NCBI GenBank assembly: GCA_026702755.1
Contig: JAPPBX010000012.1
Span: 1 to 42,772, forward strand
Length of the DNA: 42,772 nt
Direction of reading: 5' to 3'
Source of the DNA: Candidatus Poribacteria bacterium
GTDB taxonomy: Bacteria; Poribacteria; WGA-4E; WGA-3G
Shown: positions 4,035 through 34,077 of the stretch, piece after piece
Position numbering within the stretch: the stretch's first letter is position 1
How the letters are laid out: each line of letters begins with the position of its first letter
Notes under the pieces: generated by a model
Seen by the model: only the letters and a program-made list of their open reading frames with translations
Database searches by the model: none
What the model was told of the DNA's origin: nothing
Program-made: the position numbers and the translations under genes

Positions 4035-5543
4035 ATGCTAACACTGATCCGTCGAGAACTTCTTGATAACTTAATGACATTTCGTTTTGCGGCAGCAGTT
4101 TTCATTATGCTGCTACTTGTTGTTGCGAATACTGTTGTGCTCATAGAGGACTATGAGCGACGGTTGTCTGGCCACAACGCCGCTGTCGAAATGCATCAAC
4201 GGCAACTCCATGAGAAAAAAACCTATTCTTCAGGGCTAACAAGATTATACGTTGACCGTCCGCCTAACCCTCTAAGCATCTTCAATGTCGGGTTCGATAA
4301 GCAGCTCGGAAATCAGGTTCGGGTATCACACTCATTCGTTCCAACACTGTGGGATGCCCACATGCATGGATCTTCTAATCCATTTATGGATATGTTTGCT
4401 TCAATGGATATTATTTTTATCTTTGAAGTTATCCTGGGTCTGTTAGCACTACTTTTCGCGTACGATGCATTCGCGGGAGAATACGAAAATGGAACGTTGC
4501 GTTTAGTTTTGACGCATCCGGTTAGACGCGGTAATATATTGGTTGCGAAATACATCAGCGCAATGATTTGCCTAATTGTCCCGTTAGCGATAAGTTTACT
4601 CCTCTCGCTTATTTTACTAACGATATCCTCCTCCGTCTTTCTGAATACTGACAATTTTCTTCGCATTAGTGGTATTATTTTCACCTCTGTTGCGTATCTT
4701 TCCGTATTCTATCTCATTGGATTATTGATTTCGGCTGCGACGCGCCGAACGAGTACAGCGTTGATGTTCTCTATGTTCGTGTGGGGATTTTTGGTACTGG
4801 TGTACCCAAATGTGATTCTCACTGTGATCCCACAGCCCAAGGCTCCGCAGGCGCGCACGGCATCCGCTTTCAATCAAATAGAACAGATGTGGAACGAATT
4901 CGACAGAGAACGCAAACACTTCCTTGCCACCGACGATTTTCCAGGGGAAGATTGGGGTTATGAACTCAGAGGGTGGGGATCTCGTTCCGCCTTTTTATTA
5001 GGTAGTCGCCCCACACTCTTCTATCGATATCGTAGTATGATGAACTTCCAAGGGTTTGGTGAGGAAGATGAACCCAAGATCCCTCACGCACGGAAACATT
5101 TCCGCTACCTCGGTCCGAGAATTATTGATACAGCAGAAAAAACATGGCTCATACGAAAGCCGGCACTTGAAGACATTTTCGTTCGTCCAGCAGAGGTTGA
5201 GCGAATCTGGTTGAAGTTTTCGCCCGTAGGGGTATATGATGCCGCAACGCAAGCCTGGGCAGGTACGGACTTGCATGGTGTCAGAGATTTTTTCGACGCT
5301 GCAAGACAGTATAGACAGCAGGTAATTGACTATCTCTACGATAAAGAGGCATTCGGATCGCGACAGTGGTTTTCCTCAGACAAGGGGGCAGCGGATTGGA
5401 GCGACCTACCACAATTTGACTATCAAAGAGTTGATAGTAACACGAATGCAATGCGCGCACTGCCAAATGTATGTTTATTATTCATGATTAATATCATACT
5501 TTTCGTTGTAATATTTCTGATTTTCGTCAAAAGTGAGGTGTAG
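4035..5543 (+). CDS. ABC-2 type permease, family A, copy 1
   Basis: This 502-residue membrane protein has one N-terminal membrane segment (about 16-37), an extracytoplasmic stretch, and four segments at about 123-142, 173-197, 211-236 and 240-265. A soluble region of about 200 residues and a final membrane segment (478-498) follow. The AGEYENGTLRLVL motif after the second segment is typical of ABC-2 permeases; the large soluble insert resembles DUF3526/GldF-like members. The N-terminus (RRELLDNLMTFRF) and C-terminus (FVKSEV) define family A, with copies at 6970 and 34077. It is followed after one base by its B partner, so the two probably form a heterodimer. The substrate is unknown and no dedicated ATPase gene is nearby. 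Confidence 0.88.
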   Translation: MLTLIRRELLDNLMTFRFAAAVFIMLLLVVANTVVLIEDYERRLSGHNAAVEMHQRQLHEKKTYSSGLTRLYVDRPPNPLSIFNVGFDKQLGNQVRVSHSFVPTLWDAHMHGSSNPFMDMFASMDIIFIFEVILGLLALLFAYDAFAGEYENGTLRLVLTHPVRRGNILVAKYISAMICLIVPLAISLLLSLILLTISSSVFLNTDNFLRISGIIFTSVAYLSVFYLIGLLISAATRRTSTALMFSMFVWGFLVLVYPNVILTVIPQPKAPQARTASAFNQIEQMWNEFDRERKHFLATDDFPGEDWGYELRGWGSRSAFLLGSRPTLFYRYRSMMNFQGFGEEDEPKIPHARKHFRYLGPRIIDTAEKTWLIRKPALEDIFVRPAEVERIWLKFSPVGVYDAATQAWAGTDLHGVRDFFDAARQYRQQVIDYLYDKEAFGSRQWFSSDKGAADWSDLPQFDYQRVDSNTNAMRALPNVCLLFMINIILFVVIFLIFVKSEV

Positions 5544-5544
5544 A

Positions 5545-6963
5545 ATGGTTTGGGATATTGCAAAACGCGAACTCTACGATAACCTGAATAGCCTCCGCTT
5601 TGCGCTTGCAACAATGTTGCTGCTCGGATTAATGCTGACCAACGCGATTATACATCTCCGAGAACACCCGGCGCGGATACAGAAATATCGAGATACTGTT
5701 GCTGAACATCAAAATCGTTTAAAGTCTCATGCCGAGAACAGTTTATATGAACTTGCACGAAAGGGGCCTGTCGATCTCTCCAAAAAGCCGTCTCGACTCC
5801 ATTTCTGTGCAGAGGGCGGTGAGGTGTTTTTATCAGAATATGTGGCGAGTAGGTATGGGCGCTGGGGTTGGGGGGACGGTGACTTAGAAAGTTTTTGGAT
5901 GCTTGAGTATCCATCGGTTACCCCTAATTTACGGAATATCCGTCCAAATGTTACCAGAGTAGATTGGGGTTTTATCATCGGTTACGTCTTAAGCCTCGTC
6001 GCACTCCTGTTCACCTTCGACGCAATCTCAGGCGAACGCGAACGTGGCACCTTACGACTAATGTTGGCGAACGCTGTGCCAAGGCACACCGTGCTAATTG
6101 GCAAATTTTTGGGGGCATTGATAAGTATCAACATCCCGTTTACCATTGCTGTGTTGGTGAATCTATTCGTAATTTCTACATCGAGTGATGTCCATCTCGG
6201 TGCGGGAGAATGGAGCCGTTTGGGAATCATTTTTGGTGTCGCGCTCCTGTACACGTGTTTATTTCTGGCGTTAGGTTTGTTAGTATCGTCGCGTGTACAG
6301 CGGAGTGCAGTGAGTCTTGTGATACTCCTATTGGTTTGGGTCACACTTGTGGTTTTTATGCCGAGCACCCTCGCGTCTATCGCGGGTGGCTCTTCATCGC
6401 CCAGACCTACTTTTGGATTTTCGGAACGCTCCAGTCAACTTCACGATGAACTTGACAAGAAATATAGTGCTCGTATCCATGATGCCGGCGAGGATTCAAC
6501 AAAAAGATTACAATTGTTAGGCGAGTTCGTTACCAAAGACGCGGAAGGGCAGGAACAACTGCACGAAGAACGCTTAAAGCAGCGGATTGCCCAAGTCAAA
6601 AAGGCGCGTGCTATCACCCGTTTTTCACCTGTTACGATTGTGCAGCACCTCCTTGAATCTTTCGCTGGCACAGGTTTTGAGCGACATCTGCAGTTCTTAG
6701 AGAACGCCAAATCTCATGCCCGACAGTTCCGGACATTTATCGTTGACACCGATAGAGAGGACCCAGATAGCCTTCATTTTTTAGGTGTTCGTGCAGGCAT
6801 GTCAGGGAAACCTGTCAGTCCAGAAGCTGTTCCCAAATTTGAAGATACGCTCAGCCTGAGTCATGATTTTAACACAGCGGCGATGGATCTGCTGTTGCTA
6901 ACGCTGTTTGTTATAGTGCTTCTATCGGGGGCGTATCTTGCGTTTGTGCGCGTTGAAGTGTGA
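5545..6963 (+). CDS. ABC-2 type permease, family B, copy 1
   Basis: This 472-residue permease has the same layout as family A: an N-terminal membrane segment, an exposed loop, four central membrane segments, a soluble region and a last membrane segment. Its termini differ from A (AKRELYDNLNSLRFALAT at the start, FVRVEV at the end). SGERERGTLRLML is the ABC-2 signature. The soluble region contains SPV...FAGTGFERH..F, which parallels SPVG...AWAGTDL..RDFF in family A, so A and B are probably ancient paralogues. The ATG at 5545 lies one base after the A1 stop, with GAGGTG inside the end of A1 as ribosome site, which implies translational coupling. A GTG at 5533 in the same frame is a less likely start. 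Confidence 0.88.
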   Translation: MVWDIAKRELYDNLNSLRFALATMLLLGLMLTNAIIHLREHPARIQKYRDTVAEHQNRLKSHAENSLYELARKGPVDLSKKPSRLHFCAEGGEVFLSEYVASRYGRWGWGDGDLESFWMLEYPSVTPNLRNIRPNVTRVDWGFIIGYVLSLVALLFTFDAISGERERGTLRLMLANAVPRHTVLIGKFLGALISINIPFTIAVLVNLFVISTSSDVHLGAGEWSRLGIIFGVALLYTCLFLALGLLVSSRVQRSAVSLVILLLVWVTLVVFMPSTLASIAGGSSSPRPTFGFSERSSQLHDELDKKYSARIHDAGEDSTKRLQLLGEFVTKDAEGQEQLHEERLKQRIAQVKKARAITRFSPVTIVQHLLESFAGTGFERHLQFLENAKSHARQFRTFIVDTDREDPDSLHFLGVRAGMSGKPVSPEAVPKFEDTLSLSHDFNTAAMDLLLLTLFVIVLLSGAYLAFVRVEV

Positions 6964-6969
6964 TACAAA

Positions 6970-8463
6970 ATGCTTAAAACACTCATTCGTAGGGAACTGC
7001 TTGACAATCTAATGACTTTCCGTTTCGCAGCGGTATTGCTCATCACGCTGTTGCTCGTTGTTGCAAATACAGTCGTGCTTGTCCAAGATTACGAACAACG
7101 TTTGGAGAGTTACAATGATGCCGTCAAAATGCATCGTCAGGACCTACGCAATTCCAAAACCTATTCTACTGCATATCTGTTCGTTGACCGGGCACCGAAT
7201 CCGTTGAGTATTTTCAATATCGGATTAGATAAACGTTTGGGAAACCTCATCGGTATCTATCACGGATTTATGCCGACACTCTGGGATGCCCAAATGCACG
7301 GCGCGGACAACCCGTTTATCGCTTTCTTTTCTTCAATTGATATTGTCTTTGTCTTTGAGGTTATCCTCAGCCTAATGGGGTTAATATTCGCTTACGATGC
7401 AATTGCGGGGGAACGTGAACGCGGCACGTTACGTCTCGTTCTCGCACAGCCTATTGGACGTGGGCAGATCTTACTTGCGAAATATATCAGTGCGATGGCG
7501 TGTCTGTTGGTTCCTTTGATATTGAGTCTGCTTTTTGCGTTGTTGTTCTTAACGCGTTCGATTCCGTTGTCAATCGCTGATTTTCTCCGCATCGCCGGGA
7601 TTGTTTTTACATCGTTTGCGTACTTATCGCTGTTTTACCTCATTGGATTGCTGATTTCCGTAGCGACGCGTAGAACCGGCACTGCCCTCATGCTCGCGAT
7701 GTTTGTATGGGGGTTTTTGGTACTCGTGTATCCGAATTTGATTCGGGTAACTGTTAATCCTGGAGGTGACATCCAAGCGCGTGTGAAGACTGCCCAGAAC
7801 CAGATTCAACAGATTTTAGATACATACGAGCGGGAACGTCAAAAGTTCCTTGAAAAAGAGGGAATCGCTGGCGAGACATCGGAATTCAGCAAGGCGTTAG
7901 GATTTTATCACCAGGCGGATGTGGATCCAGTAACCCTGATGACTTATATTGAAAATATGAGTGTTATTTCAGAAATTCGTCCGGACTTTGAGAAGTACGT
8001 TCCCGTCGCTAAGCGGTATTACAATTTCGTTGAACCGTTGGTTACCCAAACAGTAGAAAAGGCGTGGCGCGTCCGCAAGCAGGCACTTGATGAAATTTAC
8101 GTCCGACAAGCCACAACTGATAGGATATTGTTGAAACTCTCACCCGTAGGTATCTATGACGCTGCGACGCAGGCATGGGCAGGGACTGACCTATCTGGCC
8201 TCAGAGATTTTTTCGATACAGCGCGACGTTACCGAAAAGTTGTGATTGACTATCTCTACGCGAAAGATGCGATGTCGTCAAGAGAGTGGTTTATCGCCGA
8301 TAAAGGTGCCGTCGATTGGAGCACACTCCCGCAGTTCACTTTTCAAAGAAGCGATGTTGGAACAAATGCAAAACGGGCACTACCGGACATGTTCCTACTG
8401 ATGATCTGTAACCTCGTCCTGTTTATGTTGATAGTTCTTATTTTTATTAAAAGTGAGGTGTAG
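6970..8463 (+). CDS. ABC-2 type permease, family A, copy 2
   Basis: This 497-residue protein is closely similar to A1 over its whole length, for example FRFAAVLLITLLLVVANTVV, PNPLSIFNIGLDKRLGN, AGERERGTLRLVL and SPVGIYDAATQAWAGTDL, ending in FIKSEV. The soluble region between about residues 270 and 350 differs most from A1 and may be where substrate or partner contacts diverge. It starts six bases after the B1 stop, so A1-B1-A2 read as one operon. Membrane layout is as in A1. The repeat seems to come from duplication of an A-B pair. Confidence 0.88.
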   Translation: MLKTLIRRELLDNLMTFRFAAVLLITLLLVVANTVVLVQDYEQRLESYNDAVKMHRQDLRNSKTYSTAYLFVDRAPNPLSIFNIGLDKRLGNLIGIYHGFMPTLWDAQMHGADNPFIAFFSSIDIVFVFEVILSLMGLIFAYDAIAGERERGTLRLVLAQPIGRGQILLAKYISAMACLLVPLILSLLFALLFLTRSIPLSIADFLRIAGIVFTSFAYLSLFYLIGLLISVATRRTGTALMLAMFVWGFLVLVYPNLIRVTVNPGGDIQARVKTAQNQIQQILDTYERERQKFLEKEGIAGETSEFSKALGFYHQADVDPVTLMTYIENMSVISEIRPDFEKYVPVAKRYYNFVEPLVTQTVEKAWRVRKQALDEIYVRQATTDRILLKLSPVGIYDAATQAWAGTDLSGLRDFFDTARRYRKVVIDYLYAKDAMSSREWFIADKGAVDWSTLPQFTFQRSDVGTNAKRALPDMFLLMICNLVLFMLIVLIFIKSEV

Positions 8464-8466
8464 AAT

Positions 8467-8607
8467 AGTTGTCAGTACGCTCACTGTGTTCGCTTTCAGT
8501 TATCGGTTATTAGTTAAACCTCCGGCAGTTCCGTAAGTTTTGAATGCCACAAACTCTTAACTGACAACTGAAAGCAGGCGCAGCCTGCGTACTGATGACT
8601 GACAACT
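8467..8607 (+). repeat. Inverted-repeat element between A2 and B2
   Basis: AGTTGTCAGT (8467-8476) and ACTGACAACT (8598-8607) are perfect 10-bp terminal inverted repeats. A second nested pair is CTTTCAGTT (8493-8501) and AACTGAAAG (8566-8574). At the corresponding A1-B1 junction only one base separates the genes, so about 150 bp have been added here. It holds no open reading frame of note. Confidence 0.65.
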
Positions 8608-8613
8608 AATAAG

Positions 8614-10014
8614 ATGTGGCATATTGCAAAGCGTGAACTCTATGACAATCTGAATAGCCTCCGTTTCGCATTGGCGACGGTGTTGGTGTTAGCATTGATG
8701 CTGACCAACGCGATCCTGTATCTGCGCGAACACCCAGCGCGCGCACAAGCATATCACAACGCCGCTGCCAACGCTACAAAGACATTAGAAGCACGTAGCA
8801 CCAGCTTATATCGCCTGGCAGCAGAAGGCCCCGGAGATTTACACAAAGCACCTTCACCCCTCCGTTTTTGTGCAGAAGGGGACGAAGCCTTTCTGCCTAC
8901 ACACGCCGGGGGCAGCAATTTCTTTCCTGCCATCGCCAATGTGAGACCTGTCTGGCGGATGATATACCCACAAGATACACCCCATCTGTTTAACATTCGT
9001 CCCGATTTTACAACACTCGATTGGGCGTTCATTGTCGGCTATGTACTGAGTTTCATCGCGCTTCTCTTCACCTTTGATTCAATTTCCGGCGAACTCGAAC
9101 GCGGAACATTGCGATTGACATTGGCAAACCCTATCCCGCGGCACATTGTCTTGGTCGGCAAGTTTTTAGGCACCTTCATCAGTATTAATATTCCGTTCGC
9201 CGTTGCGGTATTGATGAACCTACTCCTGATTTCTACCTCAGACGCTGTACAACTCAACACCGAGGCGTGGGGACGTTTAGGCATCTTGTACGGTATCGTT
9301 ATCCTCTATACATGTCTCTTTATCGCTTTGGGGCTTCTAATCTCCGCGGCAGTACGAGAGAGTGGTGTAAGTCTTGTCGTGCTGTTATTAATCTGGGTAA
9401 GTTTTGTGGTATTTGTACCGAATACGTTGGCATCTATCGGCAGTCGAACCTCGGTACCCATCGCATACATGGAGTTTTGGAGCCAGCGTATTCAACTCGG
9501 AAACGAGGCACGCGACGCATATCGGGATAAATATGGAGATTCACAGACACCGCCACCGGTGCACGTACTCGGCGAATATGTCACCACAGAAGCAGAAGCA
9601 TACGAACGCTTCAACGAAACATATTTGAAGCAGCAGATTGAACAAGGGAAACGGGCGCGTGCGATAACTCGTATTTCACCGACAGCGATTACGCAACGCC
9701 TCTTTGAATCTTTTGCCGGAACGGGGTTTGAACGGCATCTGCAATTTATTGAGAATGTGCAGCGTTACGCCCGTCAGTACCGAGAATTCGTTATTGATAC
9801 CGATAGAGCAGATCCAGAAAGTCTTCATGTCGTTGGGATTCAGGAGGGTATGTCGCAGAAGTCTGTCAGTCCAGAGGCGATTCCCAAATTTAAAGACACA
9901 CTCAGCCTCAACCGTGATGTCAACACAGCGGCGACGGATCTACTGTTGTTGGTGTTGTTCCTTGGTGTGCTTATGTCGGGGGCGTACCTCGCCTTTGTCC
10001 GTCTTGAGATTTGA
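8614..10014 (+). CDS. ABC-2 type permease, family B, copy 2
   Basis: This 466-residue protein matches B1 throughout: AKRELYDNLNSLRFALAT at the N-terminus, SGELERGTLRLTLANPIPRH after the second membrane segment, FAGTGFERHLQFIENVQRYAR in the soluble region and FVRLEI at the end. It is the partner expected for A2. Unlike B1 it is not tightly coupled to its A gene, because about 150 bp of repeat lies between them. There is no strong Shine-Dalgarno sequence before the ATG (ACTAATAAG precedes it). It ends 48 bp before the convergent DUF1501 gene. Confidence 0.88.
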   Translation: MWHIAKRELYDNLNSLRFALATVLVLALMLTNAILYLREHPARAQAYHNAAANATKTLEARSTSLYRLAAEGPGDLHKAPSPLRFCAEGDEAFLPTHAGGSNFFPAIANVRPVWRMIYPQDTPHLFNIRPDFTTLDWAFIVGYVLSFIALLFTFDSISGELERGTLRLTLANPIPRHIVLVGKFLGTFISINIPFAVAVLMNLLLISTSDAVQLNTEAWGRLGILYGIVILYTCLFIALGLLISAAVRESGVSLVVLLLIWVSFVVFVPNTLASIGSRTSVPIAYMEFWSQRIQLGNEARDAYRDKYGDSQTPPPVHVLGEYVTTEAEAYERFNETYLKQQIEQGKRARAITRISPTAITQRLFESFAGTGFERHLQFIENVQRYARQYREFVIDTDRADPESLHVVGIQEGMSQKSVSPEAIPKFKDTLSLNRDVNTAATDLLLLVLFLGVLMSGAYLAFVRLEI

Positions 10015-10076: not shown

Positions 10077-11556
10077 GCCAAATTGGTTCCGCACCCTCAA
10101 CACCTACAAGTTTCTGATCTAACCCGCTGTGGAAATAAGTGAGTCGATTCGGGTCAATTCCGAGTTGATGGAGGATTGTCGCGTGCAGATGCCTGACATG
10201 AAATGGATCTGTGACCGCCGCGCTACCGAGTTCGTCGGTCTCACCAACGCTGATACCGCCCTTGATCCCGCCGCCAGCCATCCACATTGTGAAGCCGTAA
10301 GAGTTATGGTCACGACCTGTCCCCTTGGCGTACTCTGCTGTCGGTTGTCGACCGAATTCACCGCCCCATACAACGAGTGTTTCGTCGAGTAGTCCGCGCT
10401 GTTTGAGGTCTTTCAGCAGCCCGGCAATCGGTTTATCAGTCGCTTTGGCGTGCTTGTTGTGGTTTTTCTCGATGTCGTTGTGTGCATCCCAATTATCGTC
10501 GCCATGGGCACCACCGGAGTAAAGCTGAATGAACCTAACACCACGCTCAACCAACCGTCTCGCTAAAAGGCATTTCGTGCCAAATTCCTCCGTCTCCTTT
10601 TCGTTGACCCCGTACAGTGCTTTAATATGTTCCGGTTCGCTTTTCAAATCGACTGCTTCCGGTGCGGTAGACTGCATCTTGTAGGCTAATTCGTAACTCG
10701 AAATTCGAGCGGCGAGATCAGTGTTGTCGGTGCGTTTGGAGAGATGGGTTGTGTTAAATTGGCGCAAATAGTCGAGGAGCCTGCGCTGTTCGCTTTCACT
10801 CACGTCACTCGGACGCTCCAGATTCAGTATCGGGGCACCTTCTGAACGGAAAACTGTGCCTTGATAAACAGCGGGCATATATCCGCTACTCCAGTTCTTA
10901 GCACCGCTGATGGGACCCCCCGTTCGGTCAAGCATTACAACGTATCCCGGAAGATTTTCGTTTTCACTGCCAAGCCCGTAATTCACCCAAGATCCGAGCG
11001 ACGGGTGACCGCTCAACACGCGACCTGCGTTCATCATCAGCATCGCTGAACCGTGCAGTGGTGAGTCTGCAGTCATTGACTTGATAAAGGCGATGTCATC
11101 AACACAGGTTGCAAGATGCGGAAAGAGTCCTGAGACCCACTGTCCCGATTCGCCATGTTGTTTGAAATCCCACTTTGGGCTGACGATGCGTCCCTCCGAT
11201 CTCTCACCGCCGCGTCCTTTCGTTTTGACTTGAACGGTCTTGTCGTTGAGTTTGGACAGCGTCGGTTTGTAGTCGAAGGTGTCAACATGGCTTGGACCGC
11301 CATACATGAACAGGAAAATCACGCGTTTTGCCTTCGGCGTGAAGTGTGACGGTTTTGGCGTGAGTGGATTGAGATAGGGCGTTACACCGTCTGCCGCGAC
11401 GGCTTGTGAATCGAGAAAACCGTCAGCGGATAGAAGTCCGGTCAGTGCAAGCGATGCGAAACCACCGGCAATATTACCGATAAATTCCCGACGGGTTTGA
11501 CCACAGAAATCCCCTTTTGAATTTGTTTTTCTCTTGGTCTTAGGTAGATTGTCCAT
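10063..11556 (-). CDS. DUF1501 (sulfatase-like) protein with Tat signal
   Basis: This 497-residue protein carries a twin-arginine leader (QTRREFIGNIAGGFASLALTGLL, about 23-45; the twin arginines are the key feature), so it is probably exported folded. The mature part shows DUF1501 features: RVIFLFMYGGPSHVDTFDYKP, SPLHGSAMLMMNAGR, GLGSENENLPGYVVMLD, VVWGGEFGRQPT and the closing HATILHQLGIDP. DUF1501 belongs to the alkaline phosphatase/sulfatase fold, but its enzymatic role is not established. It lies 54 bp downstream of the DUF1553 gene on the same strand. That pairing is a recurrent one in Planctomycetes and relatives and is thought to serve polysaccharide or sulfated-glycan use. Start ATG at 11556 has GGAG eight bases upstream. 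Confidence 0.92.
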   Translation of the reverse strand: MDNLPKTKRKTNSKGDFCGQTRREFIGNIAGGFASLALTGLLSADGFLDSQAVAADGVTPYLNPLTPKPSHFTPKAKRVIFLFMYGGPSHVDTFDYKPTLSKLNDKTVQVKTKGRGGERSEGRIVSPKWDFKQHGESGQWVSGLFPHLATCVDDIAFIKSMTADSPLHGSAMLMMNAGRVLSGHPSLGSWVNYGLGSENENLPGYVVMLDRTGGPISGAKNWSSGYMPAVYQGTVFRSEGAPILNLERPSDVSESEQRRLLDYLRQFNTTHLSKRTDNTDLAARISSYELAYKMQSTAPEAVDLKSEPEHIKALYGVNEKETEEFGTKCLLARRLVERGVRFIQLYSGGAHGDDNWDAHNDIEKNHNKHAKATDKPIAGLLKDLKQRGLLDETLVVWGGEFGRQPTAEYAKGTGRDHNSYGFTMWMAGGGIKGGISVGETDELGSAAVTDPFHVRHLHATILHQLGIDPNRLTYFHSGLDQKLVGVEGAEPIWQVMS

Positions 11557-11610
11557 TACCGTATCTCCAATTTTAGTGTTTCTATTTTGTAGAAACGAAA
11601 ACGGGTTGTA

Positions 11611-14508
11611 TCAATCCAAAAAGATAAATTCATTTAGATTCAACGCCAATAACGCAAATCGGTCCAGTGCAACCTCTGGACTCACGCCTTCATGTTGTTG
11701 AAGTTCTTGCATGAGGGTTAATGCCTGTTGCACTTCGGATGACTCAGGTTCACGGCACAGCACAAGCCGAAGTCCAAATCGCACGCGGTCTTCGACTGCC
11801 ACACCACCTTCCCACCGCATTCTATTGGCGAAAGCGAGTGCTTGGTCGTTGATAAACTTCCCGTTGAGCATTGTCAGCGATTGGGTTGGCACCGTTGTCG
11901 AAAAACGGACTGGACAGGTCGAATCGGTGTTTGCCTGATCGAATTGGTTCAGGATTGGGACGAGCAACGAGCGTTTAACCTTTACGTAAACGCTTCGGCG
12001 GTTTGCCTCATCCGGTGGTGATTGCCCCCAAACACTCCTCGGTCTTGAGGATGTCGCCAACACTTCTTTCGGTAGTTCAGGGAAAATACTCGGTCCTCCC
12101 ATTTTAAGGTTCAGTTTTCCAGTGATCCAGAGTACTGTATCCCGAATCTCTTCTGCAGTCAAGCGACGCATGTCGAATCGCCAAAAGAGGTCATTGTTTG
12201 CGTCTTGTTGAATACATCTCGCATTGCTCTGTGCTGACATCCGATACGCGTTTGAGGTCATTATCAGTTTGTGCATCGCTTTTAACCGCCAACCGGTCGC
12301 GATGAATTCAGATGCCAGCCAGTCGAGAAGTTCGGGATGTGTCGGCGATGTGCCGAGTTGTCCAAAATCGTTCGTTGATTGGACAATGCCACGTCCGAAG
12401 TGGTGTTGCCAGATACGATTGACCATCACGCGTGCTGTTAGTGGGTTCTCAGCATTCGTCACCCACTCCGCGAGGATACGCCGTTTCCCAGATGACTTTG
12501 CGTCCTCTGGAACAGGCGGTATGTCTACAATAGGCGGATTCAACACTTCGGGAAATGCCGGTTTAACCTCGCGTCCGACAAGGTGCGGGTTACCACGTCG
12601 CAAGATGTGCGTCGGTGTCTGCTTACTCTCTGAAACCGACAGCGCCTGATGATCGTAAGGCACGCGCTGTCGCCGCCGCTGATCTCGCTGTTTTTTCAAC
12701 TCCCTCTGTTGATCTACTAACGCCTTCAACGATTCGTTCGTTTCGATAAGTTCCGCATGTGTTTTTAGCAACTCATCAAAATTGACTGTAGCATTTGTTG
12801 AGAGTGGCTGTTTCTCAAAACTCGACCCTGACCACGAAACAGTCAGTTGCGGTTTATCGATATCTTTGTTGAAGTATTCAAGACGAATCGACACCTCACC
12901 ATTCGTGAGCGCAACTTCGACATCTCGTTCACCGATCAATTCGGCGACTCTATAACCATTGAGAATCAATCTACAGGTGCCTTGCAGATCAATATGGAAT
13001 GTATAAGTCGCCTCTTCTGGTACCTGTAACGTTCCTTCAAAAACCAAGCAGATGTCTTTCTTTCTACTGGCGGGTGCGAGTGAGAATAGATTGCTAAACA
13101 ATCTCCCTTCGGCAGTAGGTTCACGGAGATCAAAATTATCAGGAAACTGCTCAAAGGTGTCTCGATAGAAGCGATATGTCAAATCACGCATCGGGGACAC
13201 TGGCGCATCAGGTACTATCTCCTCTGAAATATTTTTAGCGAGTTCGATTTTGATGATTTCTTGTATCTCGAAGAGTTTGTCCTGTGCTTCTTGTTCTGCG
13301 AGTCGCTTTTCAGCGAGTTGTTTATCTCGCACTGCTTGCTGCTCCGGCGTGCCAATATCGGCAAGAGGACCGCGGTTGTTGGGCGTAATATCATGGAAAA
13401 ACGCGAGTAGACTATAGTAATCCCGCGTGGAAATCGGGTCGATTTTATGGTCGTGGCATCGGGCACAACCGACTGTCATACCGAGCATCACTTGTCCTGT
13501 TGTTGAGACAATATCGTCAAGATAATCATACCGCGCGAGTTTCCGATCAGCAGGACTATCGTCCCAAACACCAAGTCGGTGATACCCAGTCGCAATGATG
13601 GTCTCTGTGGTTACGGTATCAAGTTCATCACCTGCCAGTTGTTCCTTGATGAATTGATCGTACGGTTTGTCTTTGTTGAAGGCGTTGACAACGTAATCAC
13701 GGTATCGCCATATATAGGGCTTGTCTGAATCGTTTTCATAGCCATTGGTTTCGGCATAACGGACAAGGTCGAGCCAGTGCCGTCCCCACTTTTCACCGTA
13801 GCGTGGCGACTTCAGGAGTTTATCAATGAGTTTTTCATAAGCGTCTGGGGATGTGTTGTTCAGGAACGCTTCCACTGCTTCTGGCGAGGGCGGTAATCCT
13901 GTGAGGTCGTAGTATACCCGACGGATCAGTGTCAGTTTGCTGGCGGGTGCGGCGGGGGTTAAATCGTGTGCTTCGAGCTTTGCGAGAATAAACGCGTCGA
14001 TCGGATTGTTGACCCAATCGGATGCATTCACTGACGGCACTTGGGGTCGTTTCAGCGGACGATATGCCCAATAATCCGATGCAGTTTTAGATTTGGGTTG
14101 GACGTTGGTATTTTGAATCGGATAAGGGAGTCCTATGTTGATCCATTTCGCCAGAATCTCAAGAGAGGTGTCATCTAACCTCCCATCAGGGGGCATCTGT
14201 GCTGTTTCTTGACCGTAACCGACCATCTCAAGTAGGAAACTATCGGCAGGGCTTTCAAGCGACACCGCAGCACCATAATCTCCGCCTTCCAGAATCTTTT
14301 CCCGACTCGTCAGTTGGAGTCCGCCCTCTACTTCAGCTCCACCACCGTGGCATTGGAAACAGTTCTGCTGGAGAATAGGCTTTACTTGAGAATTAAAAAA
14401 TTCTACCTTCTCTGCATCACTCGGATGATCTGCATAACCGGTATTGAAGGAAGCCAGTAGGCACAGAAAAACAGTGGCAAGGAAATAGGAACGGTGAGGA
14501 TGTCGCAT
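11611..14508 (-). CDS. PSCyt1/DUF1549/DUF1553 cytochrome-c-like protein
   Basis: This 965-residue exported protein starts with a signal peptide ending near NTGYA. Next is a planctomycete cytochrome-c domain with heme site CFQCH (about residues 50-54). A DUF1549 domain follows ([37 protein letters not shown]) with a second CxxCH motif, CARCH. A central insert looks like a PA14-type beta domain ([20 protein letters not shown]). The C-terminal DUF1553 domain has [19 protein letters not shown] and [11 protein letters not shown]. Heme attachment is inferred from the motifs. GGAGG upstream of the ATG at 14508 favours that start over the ATG four codons earlier (14520). It is the first gene of a two-gene unit with DUF1501. 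Confidence 0.92.
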
Positions 14509-14669: not shown

Positions 14670-16193
14670 CTACGACGATGCTTCTCTTGTTTCCGCTGGC
14701 ACGACGGAAACGCGTACAATAAAAGTGTTGGTACTTCCCTTCTCGCAAAACCAATTACCCGTTGCCCCTAACTTGAACTGTTGTCCGTGTGGGAATCGGT
14801 AAATCATTTGTCCGGTGACCCTGGGCGGAATGTCCCATACTGAAGCCAGTGCGTCGTTCGGAAATCCCTCTGTCGGCAGTTCAACGTCAGCGTCATACAA
14901 ATCGAACGAACCTGTCGCCTCACCTTCGCCTACCTCTATATCAATGATAAGGGTTCCACCCTGTTCAAATGACGTAGCATCAATCTCAATGGGTGTATAG
15001 TTCTGATAGCCGGCTCCGGGCGCGCGGAAGGTGTTTGAAACTTCCATCAACTGCTGACGCAAACTGGGATCGTCTGATTCCAGTGAGGGCTTCTCTTCCA
15101 ACGCGTATGCTAATAGTGTGAGATATCCTTGCGCTCGATTGTTGTGAGGGAATTTGCTATCTGGTTGGTGCATAATGACTGTGGCTTCAGGATTCAGGAT
15201 CTGAATGTCCACTGGATAGGCGTAATAATCTTTGAGGGACGTAGCGAAAAGACTGACGCGTTCCCCTTTTGAACCCTCTATAAGTTCTGGCAAATCACGC
15301 GGCATTACCCAAGTATTTACAAAATTCTCGTTGAGCGTTTTTATGACTTCTGAATTCGAGAGCGGACCCGCTCTCAAGTTTTTACCGTTCGCTCAGCAGG
15401 ATTCATCGTCTAAAGGACCCCAAGCAAGGACTGCATGAATCGGACGCTGTGTCGTCTCGGATTCCGCGACTGCTTCTTCAAGGGGTAGCCAGTTAATTTC
15501 AGCGAATTTGTAAAACTTCAATTCCAATCTTTTACGTGCTGCTTCGACCGTGATGGAATTTTCCCACTCAATGTCATCCCGCGCTTTTGTCGAAGTGGCA
15601 AGAAGTTCCATGCGCGGCACGAAGACCATATCAGCATGCCCAAAGTCATTGATGTCTACATTGCTATTGCGCGGCGGAAGCGCGAGCGAAAAGTCGCAAA
15701 TAGTGCCTGTCTTCAAGTTAATGCGTAATCGTCCTGCAAACTGTGATGGAATAAAACGGGCTTCGTCTATCAAATGCTCGTGAGTGCCAGGTTTCCATCC
15801 GGGTTTGTGGCGGGTTGCCAAAGTAAATTCCGCATGAATTCGGAACGTGATGTCTGCATAATCCGGCGAAAGTGCGCGTAAACAGGCGAAAGTTCCTTTC
15901 TGCCCGTGCCGTAACTTTCCTGTAGCCCCCGGGTGAAATTGGGAAAGAAACGGGATAACGCTATCCATATCCAGTTCCCATACGTCCCCTACCGTCACAT
16001 TTGACGATGGGAGAAAGGCGTTGAAAGCCTCTCCGTTATATTCTCTGGTAGGTTCGTTTGGTGACAGATCAAAGAGCTCAGCGTTTTCTGGTAATTTTTT
16101 GTGTAAATCGTAAGTCGCATCGGCAATTGGGTCCCAATGTGCATGTATTTCTAAGGGAGCTGAATTCTTCAAAACATTATTCAGATCTATCAT
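14670..16193 (-). CDS. Selenoprotein N homologue, UGA read as selenocysteine
   Basis: Two open frames (16193-15396 and 15392-14670) are in the same frame, separated by a single TGA at 15395-15393. Across it the sequence reads WGPLDDESC-U-ANGKNLR, matching the vertebrate SELENON active site WGALDDQSC-U-GSGRTLR. Similarity continues on both sides: NVDI...VPRMELLAT and EAARKRLELKFYKF before the site, LNENFVNTWV after it. The product is 507 residues with Cys266-Sec267. GGAGG seven bases before the ATG at 16193 sets the start. Human SELENON is an ER redox/calcium-homeostasis protein; here there is no signal peptide or EF-hand, so a cytoplasmic thiol-redox role is likely. Residues from about 387 form an extra beta-rich C-terminal part. 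The residue after Sec is Ala, not Gly. A SECIS-like hairpin follows the UGA. It lies about 110 bp downstream of the aminotransferase gene. selA, selB and selC are not in the window. Confidence 0.92.
15355..15395 (-). promoter_or_regulatory. Bacterial SECIS-like hairpin after the in-frame UGA
   Basis: Reading the minus strand, UGA (15395-15393) is followed by 15 nt and then a stem. GAGAGCG (15375-15369) pairs perfectly with CGCUCUC (15364-15358), and two further pairs (a U-G wobble and a U-A) extend the base. The apical loop is GGUC (15368-15365) and begins 24 nt after the UGA. Bacterial SECIS elements place a small loop, with G in its first two positions, about 16-37 nt after the UGA. The GGUC loop also occurs in the E. 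coli fdhF SECIS. Recognition by this organism's SelB is inferred. Confidence 0.8.
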
Positions 16194-16301
16194 TCGTTGT
16201 CCTCCATTGTATAACTCATCTATACACGTTCTTGGATGCACTTTTTGCCACTGTTGGGACAATGGGCAACCCATATTCCCGTATAAATTGTCAAACTGCA
16301 T

Positions 16302-32553: not shown

Positions 32554-34077
32554 CTACACTTCACTTCTTTGGAAAACCAGAAATATCCCGATGAATAGGA
32601 CGAGGTTGATTATCAACAGTAGAAAAATATCTGTAAACGCACGTGCTGCATTTATTTGGACATCGCTTCTCTGAAAAGAAAACTGAGGTAAACTGTCCCA
32701 ATCCACCGCGCCCTTGTCGGCAGAAAACCATTGTTGCGATCCGAAAGCGTCCTTATCATAGTAATAATCTATCAAGGTCCGTCGGTGCCTTCGCGCCGCT
32801 TCAAAAAAATCTCTGAGTCCGCGCAAGTCTGTCCCCGCCCACGCTTGCGTTGCAGCGTCGTACATCCCGACTGGTGAACCTCTCAAGAGGATGCGATCGA
32901 CAATCGCTGGTTGAACGAAGATAGTTTCGAGTGCCTGTTTTCGGACAAGCCATGCGCGTTCTGCGGTGTTGATGATCTGCGGTCCGAGGAAGCGGTAATA
33001 ATCCTGTGCGTGTGGTATTTGCGGTTTGGATGCTTCACTAAGTTCCTCAATGTATGAAACAGCGTGGTAATCATACCTAAGTGTTGATGAATCTTTATGA
33101 AAGTATTCGTCACTTGATCCCCATATCCAATTCGGATCTGCGTCTACCATACCAAAATCCGGATCTTCCCCTGGAAAGGCATCATTCGCAAGGAAGTGCT
33201 TTCGCTCTCTGTCGAATGCCTCCCATATCTGTTTGATTTCCTCGTAAGCGGATACCATACGTGGTTGAGAAGTCTGCGGAGGGGCAATCGCGGCGAGAAC
33301 CGCGTTTGGATACACCAACACCCAAAATCCCCAGACAAACATAGCAAGCATCAGCGCAGTACCGGTTCTGCGGGTTACTGCTGAAATTAGCATGCCGATG
33401 AGGTAGAATACCGACAGATAGACAATTGAACTCAATATAATCCCACCGATACGGAGGAAATCACCCATACTCAGAGAAATGAACGTGGATGTTGTCAGCA
33501 AAATAACCGCGAGGAGTAGACTTATCAGCAACGGAACAAGCAAGCAGAGCATCGCACTGATATATTTCGCAAGCAGGATTTGACCGCGACGCACCGGATG
33601 CGTTAGCACCAAACGCAATGTGCCACGCTCGCGTTCCCCAGCAATGGCATCGTAGGCGAAAATAAGTGCTATGAGGCTCAGAACGACCTCAAAAATAAAA
33701 ACAATATCAATCGAAGTGAAGAGGTTGAGAAGTGGATTCGTCAATTTATACGTTCCAGTATCCCACAGCGTCGGCACAAAACTGTGAGATATCCAAATCT
33801 CGTTGCCCAGCCGTTTATCCAACCCGACATTGAAAATACTCAACGGATTTGGTGGACGGGCAACGTTCAATCTTCCACCCGAATAGGTTTTCCATCCCTG
33901 TGAGCGCCGATCCTCGGTTTTGAGAGCCGTGTTGTAAGCGGCTAACCGTCGCTCGTAATCCTTGATAAGCACAAAGGTGTTGGCGACAACAAGCAACAAC
34001 ATAATTAAGACTGCTGCAGCGAAGCGGAACGTCATTAGGTTATCGAGGAGTTCTCGGCGGATGAGCGTTGTTAGCAT
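32554..34077 (-). CDS. ABC-2 type permease, family A, copy 3
   Basis: This 507-residue protein is a third family A member: RRELLDNLMTFRFAAAVLIM, PNPLSIFNVGLDKRLGNE, AGERERGTLRLVLTHPVRRG, SPVGMYDAATQAWAGTDL, and FQRSEV at the end. It is very close to A1 in the first half. The ATG at 34077 is 12 bp after the stop of sigma copy 2, with AAGGAAG between, so sigma copy 2 and A3 are probably translated from one transcript. This is the clearest physical link between the sigma fusions and the permeases. Confidence 0.89.
   Translation of the reverse strand: MLTTLIRRELLDNLMTFRFAAAVLIMLLLVVANTFVLIKDYERRLAAYNTALKTEDRRSQGWKTYSGGRLNVARPPNPLSIFNVGLDKRLGNEIWISHSFVPTLWDTGTYKLTNPLLNLFTSIDIVFIFEVVLSLIALIFAYDAIAGERERGTLRLVLTHPVRRGQILLAKYISAMLCLLVPLLISLLLAVILLTTSTFISLSMGDFLRIGGIILSSIVYLSVFYLIGMLISAVTRRTGTALMLAMFVWGFWVLVYPNAVLAAIAPPQTSQPRMVSAYEEIKQIWEAFDRERKHFLANDAFPGEDPDFGMVDADPNWIWGSSDEYFHKDSSTLRYDYHAVSYIEELSEASKPQIPHAQDYYRFLGPQIINTAERAWLVRKQALETIFVQPAIVDRILLRGSPVGMYDAATQAWAGTDLRGLRDFFEAARRHRRTLIDYYYDKDAFGSQQWFSADKGAVDWDSLPQFSFQRSDVQINAARAFTDIFLLLIINLVLFIGIFLVFQRSEV

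Follow-up and report, generated by a model that had tools for sequence, protein, structure and literature searches.

Organization of the locus

The window analysed here, a 42,772-nucleotide stretch of Candidatus Poribacteria DNA, is contig 12 of an assembly of 5.84 Mb in 126 contigs (96% complete). It contains a 507-codon frame that is broken only by a single TGA, at codon 267, which we translated as selenocysteine (Sec). The features of the locus are as follows.

16193..14670, minus strand: predicted gene for a SELENON-like selenoprotein; 507 codons from ATG to TAG, with Sec as codon 267
16201..16205, minus strand: Shine-Dalgarno sequence GGAGG, 7 nt 5' of the ATG at 16193
15585..16193, minus strand: N-terminal and middle domain, residues 1-203, containing FRIHAEF and the invariant G154
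15090..15584, minus strand: thioredoxin-like domain with the C-U pair, residues 204-368 (AlphaFold pLDDT 87.4, fold search)
15393..15395, minus strand: in-frame UGA, Sec codon 267 (SCU-A), UGA in 60/62 distinct family sites
15356..15377, minus strand: bacterial SECIS hairpin UUGAGAGCG-GGUC-CGCUCUCGA, 9 bp stem, loop GGUC, -12.9 kcal/mol
14694..15062, minus strand: C-terminal beta-sandwich domain, residues 378-500 (model, fold search, distribution)

The initial annotation had joined two open frames into a selenoprotein N gene, and its coordinates, its length of 507 residues, its GPLDDESC-U junction and its Sec at 267 were all exact on re-translation. The strand had been left out; the gene lies on the minus strand, and we rejected a plus-strand reading of 14670-16193, an interval full of stops. 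The full junction reads GPLDDESC-U-ANGK, giving the motif SCUA here, whereas most paralogues have SCUG. We preferred the ATG at 16193 over the longer ORF start at 16301 because of the GGAGG upstream of it. Conventional gene-finders would split this gene in two at the UGA. Its closest orthologues are 70-83% identical over the full length, and in most of them the neighbourhood runs aminotransferase IV, the gene itself, PSCyt/PSD1 and DUF1501. The window also holds several genes for ABC-2 type permeases with DUF3526, at 4035-10014 and 32554-34077.

Similarity to animal SELENON

The human SELENON query was a provisional sequence, not a database entry, cross-checked at 13 published variant positions; the comparison with it therefore counts as a lead. 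At those positions its letters match in 13 of 13 cases (PMC8967691, PMC7853070, PMC12839072, PMC7474598). BLASTP of the window protein against this provisional sequence gave 29% identity over 354 aa (E=2e-43), in an alignment that takes in the middle domain, passes through the SCU site and continues for about 75 residues, and so covers both sides of Sec as had been claimed at the outset. The family profile scored the same human sequence at 213 bits and reported none of 2000 shuffles. R118 and G154, both invariant in the family alignment, correspond to R291 and G315, two residues at which human SELENON is altered in disease. Shared with animal SELENON (SELENON/SEPN1) are the vicinal Cys-Sec in a thioredoxin-like domain, the surrounding LDD[EQ]SCU..G[KR].LR context and the homologous middle domain.

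Animal SELENON has a luminal EF-hand and a type II membrane anchor, and binds SERCA and other proteins in a redox-dependent manner. No Pfam match to an EF-hand was found in P0001 or 17 relatives, the alignment to human SELENON starts at residue 197, past the EF-hand, and inspection of the N-terminus of the window protein (MIDLNNVLKNSAPLEIHAHWDP) revealed no hydrophobic stretch that could form a membrane anchor. Because both elements are absent, the window protein is a SELENON-like bacterial branch and not the animal calcium sensor. It further differs from animal SELENON in its extra C-terminal beta-sandwich and its many paralogues. The suggestion that it would provide a soluble model for an animal disease protein therefore stands for the catalytic and middle domains and falls for the EF-hand and the membrane anchor.

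Domain fold and architectures

Searches of Pfam, NCBIfam and PDB sequences returned no match to the window protein, and no PDB chain among solved structures matches the family by profile. We folded the Sec domain separately because the beta-sandwich dominated the full-length fold search. The resulting model (pLDDT 87.4, from a 41-sequence alignment) matches Thioredox_DsbH, DsbH, ERp18, AGR2/AGR3 and the UBXD7 UAS domain, and is thus thioredoxin-like. These proteins have the fold in common with the Sec domain, but DsbH, ERp18, AGR2/3 and UBXD7 UAS carry CxxC or related motifs, without Sec and without the SELENON middle domain. A beta-sandwich with GOLD/CBM6/collagen-binding-type matches occupies the C-terminal ~120 residues (full-length model, pLDDT 80.9).

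The window protein lacks a signal and consists of the middle domain, the Sec domain and the beta-sandwich; its relatives vary on this plan. Some paralogues have a signal-like N-terminus; a paralogue of ~380 aa stops after the Sec domain, like animal SELENON; and the beta-sandwich is missing from short paralogues and present on ECF sigma factors. In P0004 (L089:3938-5842, minus strand) a Sec-containing SELENON-like core is joined by a linker to an AhpC/TSA, ResA-like redoxin, and the neighbours of this gene encode a TPR-redoxin and an M56 peptidase-redoxin. ECF sigma factor genes lie beside SELENON-like genes at L085:14896-16221 (plus strand), L086:7469-8788 (minus strand) and about 10 other loci. 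These sigma factors have an apparent membrane segment followed by the SELENON-family beta-sandwich, and may be membrane-bound regulators that share a ligand or sensor domain with the SELENON-like proteins.

A Sec-containing thioredoxin-like protein could resemble SELENON by fold alone and not be a true homologue. The missing EF-hand and anchor would suit such a protein, as would the weak contact of our thioredoxin-like-domain profile with DsbH-type thioredoxins. However, the similarity (E=2e-43) also takes in the middle domain (FRIHAEF, PxQFxGxL, PRNSNVD / PNHRSLNVD, P.MEL), which is not part of a thioredoxin, and we consider a likeness of fold alone very unlikely.

Conservation and selection at the Sec site

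A scan for close relatives of the protein in one genome per species (84,980 species) returned 23 loci, all of them in Candidatus Poribacteria and all with TGA wherever the Sec site was covered. The 62 distinct family sites comprise 60 TGA, one GGA and one GGC; cysteine, which the initial annotation had named beside Sec as a residue to look for and which would be expected among paralogues, was never found at these sites. With a third copy, in G079, the Gly-for-Sec paralogues are L070 (G000:C102), L050 (G062:C115) and L098 (G079:C2), with codons GGC/GGA, each read as a single unbroken frame. One clade has Gly in place of Sec, so some members of the family no longer use Sec chemistry.

Among orthologues of the window gene, dN/dS is 0.10-0.18 before the UGA and 0.16-0.30 after it. 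The expectation that homologues keep conserved sequence beyond the UGA thus holds both in the alignment and in the rates of substitution.

A bacterial SECIS hairpin follows the UGA

In the window gene, 24 nt separate the UGA from the loop of the hairpin. The published bSECIS model (PMC13188914 Fig. 2A) specifies a loop of 3-9 nt, a stem of 4-16 bp, a spacing of 16-37 nt, a G in the first two loop positions and MFE <= -7.5, and the window-gene hairpin lies within every one of these bounds. Across the family, 54 of the 60 UGA genes pass this model, against 4.0% of synonymous recodings; the six that miss have the same hairpin and fail on energy alone (-6.9 to -7.4, limit -7.5). When RNA structure was compared with protein-preserving recodings in 62 genes, the only clear excess in a 540-nt span was at +12..+48 after the UGA (mean z -1.88), with a half-overlapping interval at 0 giving a mean z of -0.92 and the rest of the span staying within 0.6.

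Two stem registers are found in the family, and both show paired changes; the exchanges among stem pairs are G-C/A-U/G-U and C-G/U-A/U-G. Canonical pairing in group B exceeds that of amino-acid-preserving permutations (p=0.0025). For the group that includes the window gene, the same test gives little support (p=0.27), since its members hardly vary. Among the Gly paralogues, the GGC copy of the window genome has the loop AACU and has lost the required G, as has the copy in G079, whereas the GGA copy of G062 keeps the loop AGUU; the loops of the window-genome and G062 copies would fit an older and a younger loss.

Taken by itself, a pair of in-frame ORFs joined over a TGA proves little, since the window has two unremarkable gene borders of this form: same-frame genes parted only by TGA occur at 11556-11613 (PSD1/DUF1501, 11611) and at 6963-6970, and are a caution against calling selenoproteins from joined frames. 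These borders lend some credit to a reading in which translation ends at the UGA and a second gene follows with its own listed start, a TTG at 15377. That TTG, however, sits within the SECIS hairpin, the UGA falls inside the thioredoxin-like domain, family genes keep one frame across the UGA, and the Gly paralogues have no break there at all. Conservation of the UGA, purifying selection on both halves and the recoding hairpin together raise the window gene above chance and uphold the original call of one gene; two separate genes are most improbable. Were the UGA confined to one assembly, it could be a mistake or the nonsense codon of a broken Cys gene, yet it recurs at 60 distinct sites in many assemblies, no Cys form was seen in the family and dN/dS remains at 0.16-0.30 after the UGA, so that conservation contradicts a pseudogene or sequencing error and we give it almost no credence.

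The genome encodes the Sec machinery

The initial annotation had proposed a search for the Sec machinery, and all of its parts were found in the genome: selA (522.8 bits), selB with, ~100 nt downstream of it, a tRNA-Sec (UCA anticodon), and selD, which is itself Sec-containing, with an in-frame TGA in the canonical context CAGU. UGA is the normal stop of 6 of the 23 window genes, and general reassignment of UGA is not indicated. Gly at the site in a few paralogues might suggest that UGA is reassigned lineage-wide, for example to Gly or Trp, but its use as a terminator in the window, the complete selABCD set and a hairpin that follows the UGA specifically leave this reading with practically no likelihood.

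In the wider phylum, selA is above the family cut-off in 57 of the 65 genomes that carry the core gene, a full selA being missing from the other 8. A further 15 Poribacteria genomes have selA without the SELENON-like family, so Sec use is wider than this family within the phylum. Neither selA nor tRNA-Sec was detected in G062 (96% complete), which is probably due to Sec loss or to missing contigs. Its SELENON-like copies include one with Gly, one frameshifted at the UGA and one with a broken stem pair; loci L100, L105, L107 and L109 of this genome hold Gly-converted, frameshifted, contig-end-cut or hairpin-broken copies. G062, a single assembly, is thus a possible case of recent loss of Sec decoding.

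An expanded family in Poribacteria

Profile matches to the Sec domain were obtained in 65 of 85 Poribacteria genomes, with ~418 genes by the sum of our table, in three families of one order. Copies reach 16 per genome in G081 (3 contigs) and 12 in the single-contig G082; the window genome has 14, with tandem copies on contigs 17, 102 and 104. Tandem arrays are frequent in the family, and some are flanked by ECF sigma factors. The tree resolves two old classes, with the copies of the window genome scattered across both. Searches of plasmids and phages (tblastn) and of viral contigs (profile scan) gave no SELENON-like match.

In more distant Poribacteria (L091 in G009 and L092 in G008, both minus strand) we observed a different thioredoxin-like protein, ~445 aa long, whose frame contains a TGA within DPLGCV-U-NNGVTGR. 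Judging from sequence, this is possibly another selenoprotein family whose Sec domain is distantly related.

A probable SELENON-like selenoprotein and its predicted mechanism

We conclude, with a probability of roughly 0.93, that the window gene makes a Sec-containing SELENON-like protein belonging to an expanded Poribacteria family. The recoding signal, the Sec machinery, the homology, the domain fold and the selection are computational results; decoding in the cell, the chemistry and the partners are predictions from them. In vivo, SelB and tRNA-Sec(UCA) would decode the in-frame UGA as Sec, with the downstream hairpin directing the recoding. The product would be cytosolic, no signal or anchor having been seen. 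Its middle domain is a homologue of luminal SELENON sequence, and its beta-sandwich is bacterial-specific.

A redox role has been reported for animal SELENON (PMC7474598). This role, the fold of the Sec domain and the redoxin fusion lead us to predict, as reasonably likely, a selenol-based thiol-disulfide reductase. Its redox pair would be the vicinal Cys266-Sec267 in the DsbH/ERp18/UAS-type thioredoxin-like domain, cycling via a Cys-Sec selenylsulfide, and its putative targets would be partner proteins, a small thiol or a peroxide.

Place among known selenoproteins and possible origin

The May 2026 inventory of 119 prokaryotic selenoprotein families (PMC13188914) has no SELENON or Poribacteria entry; it gives SelD, GPX, deiodinase-like, SELENOW-like and MsrA as families shared with eukaryotes, and SELENOO-like appears in its table. 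With the families known there, the Poribacteria family shares selABCD decoding, an in-frame bSECIS and a thioredoxin-like redox domain. In the literature covered, which left aside subscription papers and preprints, we found no paper that pairs 'selenoprotein' with 'Poribacteria', and no source for the bacterial homologues in Poribacteria that the initial annotation had mentioned. Given that scope, and since the initial annotation names such homologues, a prior mention may exist.

Mutations in SELENON cause human congenital myopathies, and mutation of the SRE hairpin is itself a cause of myopathy. In both lineages an RNA hairpin lies right after the UGA, the SRE in animals (PMC12936836) and the SECIS in Poribacteria; the SECIS of animal SELENON is in the 3'UTR, whereas that of the Poribacteria family is the in-frame bacterial type. 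Sponges have SELENON with a eukaryotic SECIS (PMC3473315) and Poribacteria are known from sponges (PMC3909097), so that a transfer of the gene readily suggests itself. A move of SELENON between sponge-symbiont bacteria and early animals is, in our estimate, unlikely; if bacteria were the donors, the SRE of vertebrates might be what remains of a bacterial SECIS, because the SECIS-type hairpin of Poribacteria has the matching position behind the UGA. In a tree that includes the provisional human sequence, the human branch is too long to give the direction of transfer.

What SELENON does is described as enigmatic to this day (PMC12936836). A soluble bacterial relative that has a built-in SECIS, short forms and a redoxin fusion offers material for work on its structure, redox chemistry and partners. 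The family adds to the prokaryotic catalogue a selenoprotein shared with eukaryotes that is unusually expanded, and it makes the origin of animal SELENON and of the SRE testable.
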